Positions 6,874 through 21,828 of a stretch of 24,179 bases of DNA are shown here, piece by piece; positions within the stretch are counted from its first letter, which is position 1; every line of letters begins with the position of its first letter. Under the pieces are notes generated by a model. It was not told the origin of the DNA and made no database searches. It was given only the letters and a program-made list of their open reading frames with translations. The stretch spans positions 1-24,179 of the IMG/VR virus record IMGVR_UViG_3300030107_001279. One strand, written 5' to 3'. This DNA comes from a virus. Both the position numbers and the translations under genes were made by a program.

Positions 6874-8253
6874 TCAGGTCCATCCACCTGCCGCAACAGA
6901 TTTTATATCCCGCCTTTGCAAAATCATTGCTCCTTCACCTGCACTAGTTATGTGTAACATAAGATACTGAAGGGCTTCAGCAATATGTGAATGTTTATTT
7001 TTTTCTATGGTGCCGTTCTTCTGATGGTATCTATACCCTCCCATCATTGCCGCTTTAAGATTAGTACAGCTGGAGTCCATAAGAAATGCCGAGTCGCCAT
7101 CTACATGCCGCATAAGAAAATCGTCAACTGAATTTAACCTTGCAGATATATTATTAGTTTTTGCAGGGAATACCCTGAACCCTTCTGCCTTTATAATATC
7201 TACCGCACTACGCTCATCCGTTTGTGCTCTCTGCACACCGGCTGGGTCTGTAACAATAATTACAGGTGCACCTGAAAACTTTTCATATATAAGCGGTTTA
7301 AGTACCGATCTTACAAATCTCTGCACACCCATATCAAAACTGACAGCTTCCCCCAGTATAAGTGCTCTACCCCTAGGATCCTGTTGCCCGATAACAGCAG
7401 CAGGTGTCAAACCTAAATCCATACCCACAACTATAGGACGTACGCCATTAATAATAGAACGCACAGGCTCTTTAGCCATATGGTAGTCAGGTCTGAAATA
7501 TTTATACACAGGCTGTCCAGCTGAACTTAACCCATATTCACCATCAATATACACACGTATATATTCTTCCGATCTACCTTGAGTATCGTAGTACCCATCC
7601 GGAAGGTTTTCAATATTTTCCGCAAACGTACTCCTGCCGGAGGGTTGTTTAAAAACATCCCAGCCGTTGTCATTCTCACTGACTCCGTCAACTGGACTGA
7701 GCTTTTCCATCTGGTAGTACCACCAAGTGTCCATTGTAGGAGGGTTCGTGTCTCCCCACATTCCGAACCATGTGGGGCCACCGTCCTTTGATGATGGGAA
7801 ACGACCAATACGTTTAGACATGGCGTCCACAATGTCAGGGTGTATATCGCGACACTCATTGAACCACGCAAAAGTTAACTCGAGTGAGTTAAGGTTAGCG
7901 ACATCATCTGCGTCGTCCAGTGCTCGAAACATAACTTCGCACTCGACGTCACCGACTTTAAAGAAATATGTCTTAGTTGTACGCATAAACTGCCCGCACG
8001 GCCCTGGCGGGAACCAGTCGAGAAAAGTTTTAATAGTTGTATCCTGCAACTGCCTAGCAGTTTCACGTACCACTGCCGCCCGAGTTCGTCGGATTCCATT
8101 CTTATCTGGTTCCTGCATGGAAGCACGACGTATTACCTCAAAAGAACATGCTACAGATTTGCCCGATCCTACAGGGCCCATAAACGCCCTCATTTTTTGG
8201 TCGGACTCCATAAACTTTTTTGCAGTATACGAGGGTGTATAGTCTATATCCAA
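6874..8253 (-). CDS. terL: Terminase large subunit
   Basis: The 459-aa packaging motor that pumps and cuts DNA. The ATPase half has Walker A GPVGSGKS (26-33), Walker B ending in the catalytic Glu (LTFAWFNE, Glu133) and a WGDTNPP coupling motif (166-172). The RNase H-like nuclease half has Asp279 (GMDLG), Asp336 (TDPAG) and the C-terminal KHSHIAEALQY motif. The start is TTG at 8253, with GGAGA six bases upstream; no ATG fits, and the previous gene ends three bases away. The downstream hairpin probably ends or attenuates the transcript. Confidence 0.93.
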   Translation of the reverse strand: MDIDYTPSYTAKKFMESDQKMRAFMGPVGSGKSVACSFEVIRRASMQEPDKNGIRRTRAAVVRETARQLQDTTIKTFLDWFPPGPCGQFMRTTKTYFFKVGDVECEVMFRALDDADDVANLNSLELTFAWFNECRDIHPDIVDAMSKRIGRFPSSKDGGPTWFGMWGDTNPPTMDTWWYYQMEKLSPVDGVSENDNGWDVFKQPSGRSTFAENIENLPDGYYDTQGRSEEYIRVYIDGEYGLSSAGQPVYKYFRPDYHMAKEPVRSIINGVRPIVVGMDLGLTPAAVIGQQDPRGRALILGEAVSFDMGVQRFVRSVLKPLIYEKFSGAPVIIVTDPAGVQRAQTDERSAVDIIKAEGFRVFPAKTNNISARLNSVDDFLMRHVDGDSAFLMDSSCTNLKAAMMGGYRYHQKNGTIEKNKHSHIAEALQYLMLHITSAGEGAMILQRRDIKSVAAGGWT

Positions 8254-8256
8254 TAT

Positions 8257-8541
8257 TTATCTCCCTATCCCGTAAGGCATAACTACAAATTTTTTACGCT
8301 TCTTATTACCACGGGCTATTTTTATCTTATAGGAAACTCCGTAATCATCAAGAAGCTTTGTAAAAACCTGGCAGTTTTCCATATCAGCAAATTCTGCTGC
8401 AGGGGACCCTTCAAAATAACTAGTTAAACTATCTGTTATCTTCGATGGAAGATTGGACTGTGGTTGACGCTTCATGTTCAACGACAGGTCCTGTTCGTTC
8501 AAGTTCGTTTCCGAGGTTAATTGTAATTCTAACTCCGCCAT
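8257..8541 (-). CDS. Small protein between terminase subunit genes, unknown
   Basis: The maximal frame gives 94 aa from ATG 8541, overlapping the end of terS by 113 bases. An internal ATG at 8475 would give 72 aa with a shorter overlap. Neither has a convincing Shine-Dalgarno site, so the start is undecided and coupling to terS is likely. The C-terminus is basic (KIKIARGNKKRKKFVVM). No domain recognised. It ends three bases before the TTG of terL, so it is almost certainly in the same message. A DNA-binding or terminase accessory role is a guess. Confidence 0.55.
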   Translation of the reverse strand: MAELELQLTSETNLNEQDLSLNMKRQPQSNLPSKITDSLTSYFEGSPAAEFADMENCQVFTKLLDDYGVSYKIKIARGNKKRKKFVVMPYGIGR

Positions 8542-8914
8542 TATTACCGTCTACAATATTATCATTCTTTGGCTCTAACCCACTCCATTTTATCGTGTGT
8601 TTAATTAGATCAGCCTTTACAGCCGCGTTTACTTCCGGATTATGTATCATTGTCCATGAAGTTGTAAGCAGTTCTTCGGCCTGTGCCCGTGCCTTTAACC
8701 TAAAAGTCATGCCTTCTTCCCGTATACTAGTACGGTAGCCTTCGACTTTCTTTAGAAATATGGGATCTTTATTATATCTTAGCATGTCATCAGCGCAAAT
8801 CCGATGTCTGGCAAATACTTCTTCAGTAGTTTCTCCGCTGCCCTCAAGCATAAGCGCAATATCAAAAGCTAATCTGTCTGACCACTTGGTGTGTTTCAAA
8901 GGTAAGCTGTCCAT
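8429..8914 (-). CDS. terS: Terminase small subunit (putative)
   Basis: A 161-aa protein with an N-terminal HTH-like region (LAFDIALMLEGSGETTEEVFARHRICADDMLRYNKDP, about 15-52), a helical middle (REEGMTFRLKARAQAEELL) and a KADLIKHTIKWSGLEPK segment typical of small terminases near the oligomerisation domain. It is the first gene of the leftward block and precedes terL with one small gene between. TerS recognises the packaging site and loads terL. There is no Shine-Dalgarno sequence; the bases before the ATG are AT-only, and a promoter lies so close that the message is probably leaderless. Confidence 0.78.
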   Translation of the reverse strand: MDSLPLKHTKWSDRLAFDIALMLEGSGETTEEVFARHRICADDMLRYNKDPIFLKKVEGYRTSIREEGMTFRLKARAQAEELLTTSWTMIHNPEVNAAVKADLIKHTIKWSGLEPKNDNIVDGNNGGVRITINLGNELERTGPVVEHEASTTVQSSIEDNR

Positions 8915-8920
8915 ATTTTT

Positions 8921-8951
8921 AGTATATACTTATTTTATTTATAAGTGTCAA
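8921..8951 (-). promoter_or_regulatory. Leftward (packaging/head) promoter, probably leaderless
   Basis: On the minus strand TTGACA (8951-8946) is followed after 17 bases by TATATA (8928-8923), or after 19 bases by TATACT (8926-8921). The ATG of terS starts 6-8 bases after the -10 element, where transcription would begin. It is the only clear promoter candidate for the leftward genes. Confidence 0.65.
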
Positions 8952-9121
8952 GGCTATGCGCTAACTATACACGTTCATTTTTTCGGCACTTAGTATAAGA
9001 GGCTTACGTATACCGGGTAGGGGTCATAAAACGCCAGTCCGACTACCCCCCCGACACACCCGACACACTAAAAGTTATAGATAAAATACCTATCTCTGTA
9101 ATCCGCAGAAATGCTGGTGAT

Positions 9122-9149
9122 TTGACTTTTTTTTACAATCATGTATAGT
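9122..9149 (+). promoter_or_regulatory. Rightward early promoter upstream of the 133-aa gene
   Basis: TTGACT (9122-9127), a 16-base spacer and TATAGT (9144-9149) match the sigma70 consensus well. The 11-mer GGTGATTTGAC covering the -35 region (9116-9126) recurs exactly at the other rightward promoter (10263-10273). Transcription would start near 9156, giving a leader of about 75 bases that contains a strong hairpin. Confidence 0.7.
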
Positions 9150-9186
9150 TATATCATCAGCAAATCAAGCAAGACTGATATAACCT

Positions 9187-9212
9187 GCACAGGCTACCTG
9201 TGTAGTCTGTGC
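9187..9212 (+). other. 5'-UTR hairpin before the early gene
   Basis: GCACAGGCTAC (9187-9197) and GTAGTCTGTGC (9202-9212) pair over 11 bases with one G-U pair and a CUGU tetraloop. It ends nine bases before the AGGAG ribosome site of the 133-aa gene. It could protect the 5' end of the message, present the ribosome site, or be a protein-binding site. It has no T-run, so it is not a terminator. Confidence 0.65.
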
Positions 9213-9231
9213 GCAACATAGAGGAGATAAT

Positions 9232-9633
9232 ATGTTATATTATCCTGTTAAGTTGTCCACTCCGGCAACTAATAATTTTGTCAAGCTAACTTATGATAAG
9301 TCTAAGCCTAGCATGACAGTTAAGCCAACTCATACGGATGAGCAAGTCAAGGCATTCTTTCTTGCAGTGCTTGCAAATCCTAGAAGTGTAGGACGTTTGT
9401 TACATAACTACAGTTTCTGGTTTTGTGACGTTCAGCTTAAAGCTAAGCCGGAGACAATTAATCCTGTCTCATTAGAGTGGGCGGCTAAATATTTAAAGAA
9501 GAATGGCGATAAGCTATTCTTCAGCATGACGTACCGAAAAGGATCTTGGAACCCATGCTTAAATATTTCTCTGACTCCAAGAGAAGAAATTCTAACTCTT
9601 GGTACTAAGCAAGAAGAAGAGCTTGTACTGTAG
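9232..9633 (+). CDS. Early protein of unknown function, 133 aa
   Basis: First gene of the rightward block, with a strong AGGAG-ATAAT-ATG start behind its own promoter and leader hairpin. The product is mixed alpha/beta, with basic N-terminal half (LTYDKSKPSMTVKP), a Phe/Trp-rich middle (NYSFWFCDVQLKAKP) and an acidic end (TKQEEELVL). I recognise no domain. It is isolated from the main rightward genes by two hairpins and 613 bases of AT-rich DNA, so it is separately regulated and may be a host-takeover or replication-control protein; that is inference from position. Confidence 0.72.
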   Translation: MLYYPVKLSTPATNNFVKLTYDKSKPSMTVKPTHTDEQVKAFFLAVLANPRSVGRLLHNYSFWFCDVQLKAKPETINPVSLEWAAKYLKKNGDKLFFSMTYRKGSWNPCLNISLTPREEILTLGTKQEEELVL

Positions 9634-11449: not shown

Positions 11450-11635
11450 ATGCGAGAGGTGATAGGTAAGAGATTGTTTATGCTACGAAATAAAAACGAT
11501 AACACATTAGTAAAGGATGAGAATGGCAACGACCTTTACTTCAGTAACAAGATGATAGCCAAACAACATAGGCAGGTAGGGCAAGTAGTAACCTACGGCA
11601 TTGACCATAACAGATATAAAGGAGGTAAAAGATAA
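11450..11635 (+). CDS. Small basic protein before the MoxR gene, 61 aa
   Basis: ATG 11450 is preceded by GAGAGG seven bases upstream and lies five bases after the previous stop. The frame stays open back to ATG 11387 and GTG 11384, which would add a hydrophobic N-terminus (ITLLILMIPFGVLVIA); that version overlaps the 55-aa gene. The shorter protein is basic, with a KDENGNDLYFSNKMIAKQ middle. Its TAA overlaps the ATG of the MoxR gene (TAATG), whose GGAGG lies in its last codons. Function unknown. Confidence 0.55.
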   Translation: MREVIGKRLFMLRNKNDNTLVKDENGNDLYFSNKMIAKQHRQVGQVVTYGIDHNRYKGGKR

Positions 11636-12633
11636 TGCGAGCCGAACTATTAAAGAACACACTTAAAGATTTATATATAGCTAAACGTGCAACAATGATA
11701 GAGAGTGAGCCTGGTGGGGGCAAGACAGAGATAGTAGGACAAGTTGCTAAAGAACTAGGGGTTGGGTTTATCCACAAGCATATACCTACCATGCTAGTCG
11801 AGGACTTTGGTATTCCGTTTCCTACTGGTGATGCACTAACCTACAAGATACAGTCTTGGTTTCCACGTGACCCTAACTGGGAAGGTATATTATTGTTTGA
11901 TGACTTCAAGCAGACAGGTAATGACCTTCAAAAGGTAGTCGCTAACATCATTCAAGCTCGAGAATTGCACGGCTTGTACCTACCAAGAGGTTGTCAGGTA
12001 GTTATGACAGGTAATCGTACACAGGACAGGGCAGGTTCACATAAGATGCTTACCCACTTGAGTAACAGATATACTATCCTTACTCTTGATACTCACATAG
12101 ATGACTGGACTAAGTATGCTATTGACCGAAGACCTGTACCTGTAAAGCCTGAAGTTATTTCCTTTGCACGTTTCAGACCTAACCTACTGCATGACTTTGA
12201 TCCACAACGAGAGTCCAACCCTACACCACGTGCTTGGGTTGAGGGTGTTAGTGACCTGCTTGGTACTGTGCCACCTGAGTCAGAGTATGAAGTGTTCAAG
12301 GGTGCTGTCGGTGATGGTGCGGCATCAGAGTTTATGGCTATGCTTAAGACACATAGACGTTTGCCTGACCCACAGAGTATCATTGACAATCCAATGACGG
12401 CAAGGGTAGCTGATGGTGAGGACAAGAACATGGTTAACTATGCTCTTGCCGGGGCACTATCACACCGAGCAAACAGAGAGAACTTTGGGAACATAATCAA
12501 GTACACTAACAGATTACCTGATGAGTTTAGTGTACTAACTGTAACTCTTGCCATGCGTAGAGATGTTACACTATCAGAAACACAAGCGTTTACTGACTGG
12601 TCTGTTACAGTTGGCAACGCAGTATTATTCTAG
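11635..12633 (+). CDS. MoxR/CobS-type AAA+ ATPase
   Basis: A 332-aa AAA+ protein. Walker A is SEPGGGKT (24-31), Walker B LLFDD (86-90, DD in place of the commoner DE), sensor 1 is VVMTGNR (Asn127), and a following LSNR (Arg145) is a likely arginine finger. The long, flat arrangement matches MoxR-family ATPases, which form hexamers that work with VWA-domain partners (RavA-ViaA, CbbQ-CbbO, CobS-CobT). The gene is followed by three co-directional genes ending in a VWA protein. The substrate remodelled is unknown. Confidence 0.85.
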   Translation: MRAELLKNTLKDLYIAKRATMIESEPGGGKTEIVGQVAKELGVGFIHKHIPTMLVEDFGIPFPTGDALTYKIQSWFPRDPNWEGILLFDDFKQTGNDLQKVVANIIQARELHGLYLPRGCQVVMTGNRTQDRAGSHKMLTHLSNRYTILTLDTHIDDWTKYAIDRRPVPVKPEVISFARFRPNLLHDFDPQRESNPTPRAWVEGVSDLLGTVPPESEYEVFKGAVGDGAASEFMAMLKTHRRLPDPQSIIDNPMTARVADGEDKNMVNYALAGALSHRANRENFGNIIKYTNRLPDEFSVLTVTLAMRRDVTLSETQAFTDWSVTVGNAVLF

Positions 12634-13778: not shown

Positions 13779-15002
13779 ATGACCTACGCTGATATACAAA
13801 AACCAATATCTATAGACAACAGATGTATCGAGGGCTATCAACCTAAACCTATTGACGATACTATGAAAGCTACACTTGAGCAGAAGATAAGTAAGCTTAA
13901 GTCACAACTTATGTTGGACTATCCGTTTTGGGGGTACATTGCTATGAACCTACCATTCAGATTAGCAACAACAGAAGAACAGATAGCTATACCTACAGCA
14001 GGTGTTAGCTACACAGAAGTTATATTCAACCCTTGGTTTATTCAGGGGTTGAGTACTGACGAAGATATATTCTTGGGTGCTCACGAGTTATTCCACCCTA
14101 TGCTTGAGCATCTTGATAGACGACAGGGTAGAGACCCCAAGCTATGGAATGTAGCAGGTGACATTGTAATCAATTACTATCTTGTAGCTGACGGCATTGG
14201 TAAGATGTTAGCTAATGGTTGTTATGACAAAGAATTGTTTGAGAAATGTGATGGCAATACTGACAAGATATATGATGAGTTATCTAAGAATCCTGAAAGA
14301 TATAAGAAACTTATAGGTGATGATGGTGATACACCATTCGACATACAGATAGAAGATGGTCAAGGTAAATCACCAGCTGAAATTGAGCAACGTAAACAGC
14401 AATGGAAAGTACTTATAGCACAAGCATTGCAGACAGCTAAGGCAGCAGGTAACGTAAGTGCTAACTTAGAACTTCTTGTAGGTGAGTTGTTGCAACCTAA
14501 AGTGGACTGGGCAAAAGTTATGAGAGAGTTCCAAGAGAAAGCCATAACAGATGACAGGTCATTTGCTAGATTGAACAGACGTTTCATATCACAAGACCTT
14601 ATACTACCTGCCAAGACTGGTGAACAGTTAGGTGAGGTAGCATATGCTATGGATATGTCAGGGTCTTGCCTAGATTATACGACACAGTTTATGTCGGAAC
14701 TCAATGCAGTATGCCAAGAACTTAAACCGAAAAAGATACATATCATATACTTTGATAGCGAGGTATGTGGCTATGATGTATTTGAGCAAGGCGAAGAGGT
14801 TACATATAATCCCAAAGGTGGGGGTGGTACTGCCTTTAGTCCTGTGTTTAAATTTATGGAAGAGAAAGACATAAATCCTGTGTCTTGTGTATTCCTTACA
14901 GACTTGGAGTGTTCAGACTTTGGTGATGCTCCTGATTACCCAGTACTATGGGTGTCTACCGAGAAGGGCGAAGCACCTTTCGGTGAAATTGTTTTAATGT
15001 AG
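13779..15002 (+). CDS. VWA protein with metallopeptidase-like HExxH domain
   Basis: A 407-aa protein in two parts. The N-terminal part holds HELFH (102-106) with a conserved Asp about 22 residues later (VAGDIVIN, Asp128), as in the DUF2201-type putative metallopeptidases. The C-terminal part is a VWA domain with a complete MIDAS: DMSGS (292-296), a GGGGT Thr351, and Asp375 in LTDLE. Proteins of this build pair with MoxR ATPases. The HExxH may bind Zn without cutting. GGAG lies five bases before the ATG. It could instruct the ATPase toward a host or virion complex. Confidence 0.82.
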   Translation: MTYADIQKPISIDNRCIEGYQPKPIDDTMKATLEQKISKLKSQLMLDYPFWGYIAMNLPFRLATTEEQIAIPTAGVSYTEVIFNPWFIQGLSTDEDIFLGAHELFHPMLEHLDRRQGRDPKLWNVAGDIVINYYLVADGIGKMLANGCYDKELFEKCDGNTDKIYDELSKNPERYKKLIGDDGDTPFDIQIEDGQGKSPAEIEQRKQQWKVLIAQALQTAKAAGNVSANLELLVGELLQPKVDWAKVMREFQEKAITDDRSFARLNRRFISQDLILPAKTGEQLGEVAYAMDMSGSCLDYTTQFMSELNAVCQELKPKKIHIIYFDSEVCGYDVFEQGEEVTYNPKGGGGTAFSPVFKFMEEKDINPVSCVFLTDLECSDFGDAPDYPVLWVSTEKGEAPFGEIVLM

Positions 15003-21476: not shown

Positions 21477-21504
21477 TTGACACTGGTGTAAAGATAGCTA
21501 TATT
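21477..21504 (+). promoter_or_regulatory. Internal promoter of the VRR-NUC/helicase block, probably leaderless
   Basis: TTGACA (21477-21482), a 16-base spacer, and TATATT (21499-21504) begin four bases after the previous stop. Only six bases (AACAGT) separate the -10 from the ATG of VRR-NUC, so transcription should start at or beside the ATG. No Shine-Dalgarno sequence is present. It is the only intergenic gap of note in this operon. Confidence 0.68.
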
Positions 21505-21510
21505 AACAGT

Positions 21511-21828
21511 ATGGCTACTACACCTGAAGGAAAGATAAAAAAGAAACTAGACACCATGTTAAAAGAACTTGGTGTGTGGTATTACAGTCCTCAAGCAGGA
21601 CCATTTGGCAAAGCAGGTATACCTGATAGGGTTGCTATTGTTAATGGAACTTTTGTAGGGATAGAATGTAAAGCTAGTAAGTCAAAGAAACCTACAGCTT
21701 TGCAGATAAAATGTATGGAAGATATAACCAAAGCAGGGGGGAAATGTTTTGTTGTCTGTGATGACGAAACTATACAAGAAGTAAAACATTATATAGGAGA
21801 ACATAATGATAGTAGTCGAAGATGCTAA
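21511..21828 (+). CDS. VRR-NUC domain nuclease
   Basis: A 105-aa single-domain nuclease: GIPDR (Asp39), an NG-turn (VNGTFVGIE), the catalytic ECK (Glu52, Lys54), KPTALQ (Gln65) and AGGKCFVVCDDE. VRR-NUC proteins cut branched DNA such as Holliday junctions and flaps, so debranching recombination intermediates before packaging is a likely role. There is no ribosome site; the ATG lies six bases from a -10 element. The helicase gene starts 23 bases before its end. Confidence 0.87.
   Translation: MATTPEGKIKKKLDTMLKELGVWYYSPQAGPFGKAGIPDRVAIVNGTFVGIECKASKSKKPTALQIKCMEDITKAGGKCFVVCDDETIQEVKHYIGEHNDSSRRC

Follow-up and report, generated by a model that had tools for sequence, protein, structure and literature searches.

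How does translation begin on the first gene of a phage packaging operon when the promoter runs directly into its start codon? The question is raised by a 24-kb virus fragment (IMG/VR record IMGVR_UViG_3300030107_001279), of which the whole stretch analysed, 24,179 nucleotides, is called the window here. Its leftward block runs in the order terS-like gene, 94-aa ORF, TerL, portal, and scaffold-like and capsid genes, and a rightward block lies opposite terS, with ~320 bp between the two blocks (Table 1).

The terS gene and its promoter in the window

The terS product gave zero matches against PHROGs and Pfam, and its identity is therefore mainly positional, through synteny with TerL. An AlphaFold (AF2) model of the product was weak (pLDDT 61), with helices at residues 10-23, 30-37, 41-48, 51-67, and 69-90; in a Foldseek search with this model E217 TerS ranked second with a nonsignificant E value of 1.2, and assignment by fold was dropped because the model is too weak. 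The relatives form a large group of uncultured aquatic phages with contigs of up to ~53-58 kb. By TerL, the nearest isolates are Pseudomonas phage Rollin (42%), Pelagibacter phage Hodr (41%), and Rhizobium phages (38%), while the portal shares 34% identity with Rhizobium phages and ~25% with the CRP-series roseophages. Host assignment from MAG contigs was set aside as unreliable, with three matches of which two were close (bins labelled actinobacterium and Paraglaciecola) and one stood at 38% (alphaproteobacterium).

Table 1. Coordinates of the features discussed, numbered along the window
Feature	Position	Strand	Remarks
terS (161 aa)	8429..8914	-	first gene of the leftward packaging/structural operon; TerL synteny, tblastn relatives beside TerL
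TerL (terminase large subunit)	6874..8253	-	SD-led (GGGAG), same operon as terS
terS start codon ATG	8912..8914	-	predicted transcription start A8914
terS -10 TATACT	8921..8926	-	19-bp spacer; ends 6 nt (AAAAAT) before ATG; family register
Alternative terS -10 TATATA	8923..8928	-	17-bp spacer; 8 nt to ATG; overlaps TATACT
terS -35 hexamer TTGACA	8946..8951	-	read directly
Conserved box upstream of the terS -35	8963..8986	-	family form CCAAAAAATC.A.GTGTAAAGTT (also ACAAGACCCAAAAAATC.A.GTGTAAAGTT); here CCGAAAAAATGAACGTGTATAGTT
Divergent promoter candidate TTGACT-16-TATAGT	9122..9149	+	long SD-containing leader to gene at 9232
VRR-NUC promoter-like element TTGACA-N4-TGTAAA...TATATT-6-ATG	21477..21513	+	leaderless-compatible in the window; not conserved in relatives

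Read on the minus strand, the terS upstream region consists of TTGACA, CTTATAAATAAAATAAG, TATATA, CTAAAAAT, and the ATG (8914-8912). An earlier note on this DNA had described the arrangement as TTGACA-17-TATATA-8-ATG or TATACT-6-ATG, which proved exact on re-reading, and had claimed that no Shine-Dalgarno (SD) sequence precedes the gene; none of the core 4-mers AAGG, AGGA, GGAG, and GAGG is in fact present in the SD window. Both hexamers are good for a sigma70-type promoter, for which spacers of 16-18 bp are expected; here the spacer is 17 bp to TATATA or 19 bp to TATACT. TTGACA is not rare in the window (22 occurrences against 16.1 expected), and the meaningful feature is its placement relative to the terS ATG.

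No start codon lies further upstream in frame with this ATG, and the in-frame TAA at -18 to -16 rules one out. All 159 distinct relatives begin terS with ATG, and TerS residues 1-21 (MDxLPLKHTKWSDRLAFDxAL) are conserved. Codons 2-20 differ mainly synonymously (6257 synonymous versus 1833 non-synonymous pairwise codon differences), from which it follows that this ATG is the real start.

In 14 records, the genes other than terS that encode 90 aa or more, a crude set built from greedy longest ORFs, have an SD core 4-mer at the longest start in 404/609 (66%) and at some early start in 467/609 (77%), compared to 9% at random positions. The true start of terS in the lineages with TTGACA lacks an SD; in the three exceptions out of 56 the -10 itself supplies the 4-mer. 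Genes downstream of terS in the same operon are SD-led.

Promoter-ATG distance among relatives

The terS starts were extracted from 80 loci plus others added later, from which we drew a first set of 36 non-redundant upstream regions (<80% identity) and an enlarged non-redundant set of 70. In the first set, 29 of the 36 carry an exact TTGACA 34-37 nt before the ATG (31-40 nt tested), whereas dinucleotide shuffles scored over the same 31-40 nt gave a mean of 0.08 and a maximum of 2. In the enlarged set the hexamer stands 34-38 nt before the ATG in 56/70. The alignment of this junction in related phages, which the earlier note had proposed, thus finds the promoter-ATG distance conserved.

When the 29 upstream regions were anchored on the ATG without choosing hexamers, they shared T at position -12 (23 regions), A at -11 (27), T at -7 (28), and a pyrimidine at -1 (all 29). 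Across all 70 relatives, a TANNNT ends 6 nt before the ATG in 45, 7 nt before it in 10, and 8 nt before it in 1, and none ends at 0-5, 9, or 10 nt. Where TTGACA is present (56 relatives), the best -10 ends 6 nt before the ATG in 45, while the spacer between -35 and -10 floats from 16 to 19 bp, 18-19 bp being the commonest (34/56). Because the -10 stays 6-7 nt from the ATG (54/56) while the spacer varies, it is tied to the AUG, and since it is tied to the AUG and not to the -35, the A of the AUG is the most likely transcription start. The TATACT-AAAAAT-ATG of the window fits the register of the relatives.

A pyrimidine at -1 is the usual context of a purine transcription start site. It occupies this position in 56/56 relatives with TTGACA, compared to ~50% expected from these phages' other genes, an excess with p ~1e-17 if the loci were independent. 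The trait is clustered on the TerS tree, which needs about 4 changes of promoter class, and given this clustering and the shared ancestry, raw p-values overstate the independence of the loci.

The reading that we favor, with a probability of roughly 85%, is that terS heads the leftward packaging operon as a conserved leaderless gene, expressed from a probable sigma70-type promoter with its predicted 5' end at or near the AUG. The leaderless expression suggested by the earlier note is strongly supported by the conserved promoter-ATG distance. With terS transcribed leftward from a -10 (TATACT) that ends 6 nt before the ATG, RNA polymerase would start at the A of the AUG or within 1-3 nt of it, and the polycistronic packaging/structural mRNA would open with terS, with neither leader nor SD. 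Since such an mRNA would lack both, ribosomes would have to start on the 5'-terminal AUG, as they do on lambda cI, and we infer a route through 70S ribosomes or through IF2 and initiator tRNA; the genes after terS would use ordinary SDs. A second promoter further upstream may also yield a leadered terS mRNA. Unusually low structure was not seen in the first 40 nt of the terS transcript (mean z of 0.36), and weak 5' structure was dropped as a leaderless signature.

In a sister clade (L144, L137, L153, L145, L315, L318, and L325), the -10 lies ~22 nt upstream of the terS ATG and most members carry an SD, such as GAGAGGT (GAGAGGTG and similar). Position -1 is a purine in this clade, and none of its members in the first set has a pyrimidine there. 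L328, which is related to the clade, has TATACT 6 nt before the terS ATG. With its promoter further back and mostly with an SD, the sister clade offers a natural experiment on why phages use leaderless starts. The layout is not clear in the more distantly related Rhizobium phage RHph_TM3_14A, roseophage CRP-1, and Pseudomonas phage Rollin, nor in the distant MAG loci L226 and L227.

A recurring element in the spacer and competing readings

The spacer of the terS promoters holds a further element, with G, T, A, and A following TTGACA at a fixed offset in 47, 53, 46, and 40 of 56 promoters, respectively, 11-14 nt after the start of TTGACA. Of the 12 offsets from TTGACA that were tested, a single one holds the GTA triplet (in 42/56 promoters), and the other 11 never do. 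As a pattern, TTGACA-N5-GTAA occurs 24 times in 16 records, compared to 1 occurrence of the reversed pattern, with sites at terS, before VRR-NUC, and at the divergent promoter, and it resembles a near-palindromic operator, TTkACA-N4-TGTmAA. This recurrence suggests a putative regulator site. In the window, GTAA is present before VRR-NUC and absent from the terS promoter.

The element could be mainly the site of a phage activator or repressor, with the near-ATG -10 used only together with that regulator, in which case the layout would result from regulator placement and not from selection on translation. Such a reading is compatible with a leaderless 5' end and contests its purpose only. The fixed GTA offset and the recurrence of the pattern at VRR-NUC and the divergent promoter argue for it, as do the common 18-19-bp spacers, which are poor for sigma70 alone. 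It leaves unexplained, however, why it is the -10 that keeps its distance to the ATG when the TTGACA/GTAA block does not, and it sits poorly with the missing GTAA in the window's terS promoter; the tendency of GTA to accompany long spacers (18-19 bp) is no more than suggestive (p = 0.055). We consider it possible but doubtful. Similarly tentative, and rather unlikely in its entirety, is a scheme in which these phages have a promoter class of their own (TTGACA-N5-GTAA...TAnnnT-N6-AUG), a phage-coded regulator acts on TTGACA-N5-GTAA at the early, VRR-NUC, and late operons, and the leaderless head of the late operon keeps TerS below capsid.

A very short (1-9 nt) non-SD leader, arising from TATATA or from a flexible choice of start and followed by SD-independent initiation, is improbable. 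In the window, TATATA does have the better spacer, and as the -10 it would leave a leader of 1-3 nt on the terS mRNA; among the 56 relatives, the best -10 lies at 7 nt in 9 and at 9 nt in 2. The distance of exactly 6 nt in 45/56 and the invariant pyrimidine at -1 nevertheless favor the A of the AUG as +1. Least credible of all is a chance promoter-like match in AT-rich intergenic DNA, with terS read from a leadered mRNA that begins further upstream: the window shows no enrichment of TTGACA and has many weak consensus promoters, but the position is conserved across relatives far above shuffles and terS has no SD for a leadered transcript to use.

The intergenic region holds further elements. 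TGTAAAGTT lies no more than 100 nt upstream of terS in 51/70 relatives, at a varying distance from TTGACA, and the box that it marks (8963-8986 in the window) also occurs in SD-led relatives; it could be an operator, a terminator, or a packaging-related site. On the plus strand, a leader of ~80 nt (9150-9231) with inverted-repeat sequence separates the rightward promoter from the SD of the gene at 9232.

VRR-NUC and known leaderless systems

The VRR-NUC gene had been put forward by the earlier note as having the same layout. In the window it does, with TTGACA at 21477-82, a 16-bp spacer, TATATT at 21499-504, and 6 nt to the ATG at 21511, and the window's own VRR-NUC may be leaderless. This geometry is not conserved, being present in 2 of 15 non-redundant relatives, while 12 others have TTGAC at 19-31 nt from the ATG and 1 lacks it. 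Across relatives, the TTGACA box lies 19-34 nt from the ATG, mostly unsuited to a leaderless promoter; at 19-20 nt it would put the -10 inside the gene, and it is therefore not a leaderless -35 there. An SD-like motif is found at VRR-NUC in L180, L181, L190, and L224. The idea of two independent leaderless cases thus fails, and a general leaderless mode is unsupported, since most other genes have SDs and, in the 14 records scanned, terS is the one gene at which the geometry recurs, the remaining matches being single or apparently internal to ORFs. The SD-led genes downstream of terS argue against a global translation switch, and with such neighbors altered ribosomes, which the earlier note raised together with initiation-factor conditions, need not be invoked.

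The near-palindrome TTGACA-N4-TGTAA(A) at 21477-21492 (+) sits between VRR-NUC and the exonuclease gene upstream of it, directly past the stop codon of the latter. It is kept in most relatives (L187-L224 loci) at varying distance from the ATG, and it is also found at the rightward promoter opposite terS.

Leaderless initiation is a known but uncommon way to start translation. For alphaproteobacteria, leaderless transcripts have been reported at 119/2675 TSS-gene pairs of Zymomonas (PMC7566282) and as 7% of the mRNAs of Methylorubrum (PMC9320726). Among phages, lambda cI and PY54 cI/cro are leaderless mRNAs with the promoter on the start codon, the PY54 5' ends having been mapped by RACE (PMC4488713, PMC3017554). 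Like terS, these genes have a promoter directly before the ATG and no SD, although the terS 5' end is a predicted one; they are immunity regulators, whereas terS heads a packaging/structural operon and is conserved across a large uncultured group. For leaderless genes of Deinococcus-Thermus, the feature mainly reported is a -10 adjacent to the ORF (PMC12340547). The terS -10 region also lies directly before the start codon, but terS differs in having a strict -35 TTGACA and usually the GTAA spacer element.

For the operon as a whole, a parallel is acuR-acuI-dddL of Rhodobacter sphaeroides, in which the leaderless first gene is transcribed as well as the later genes and translated less (PMC3017554). 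The terS operon likewise has a leaderless first gene, by prediction, with later genes leadered within the mRNA; the Rhodobacter operon is cellular and regulatory with a mapped 5' end, whereas terS is a phage gene with a predicted one. By analogy, TerS would be co-transcribed with the capsid genes and translated less, and it may be held low relative to the capsid proteins.

No report of leaderless terminase genes was found in the open literature searched. The leaderless phage genes cited above with mapped 5' ends encode repressors, whereas terS would be a packaging gene that is leaderless across many aquatic phage lineages. A gene finder that seeks an SD may misplace the terS start, and the register of the terS promoter is usable to locate start sites in uncultured phages.

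Elsewhere in the window, a weak match to an AAA-like ATPase is encoded at 11635-12633 (+) and, two genes downstream, a DUF2201 metallopeptidase/VWA-like protein at 13779-15002 (+); the two products resemble a MoxR/VWA pair, here in a phage.
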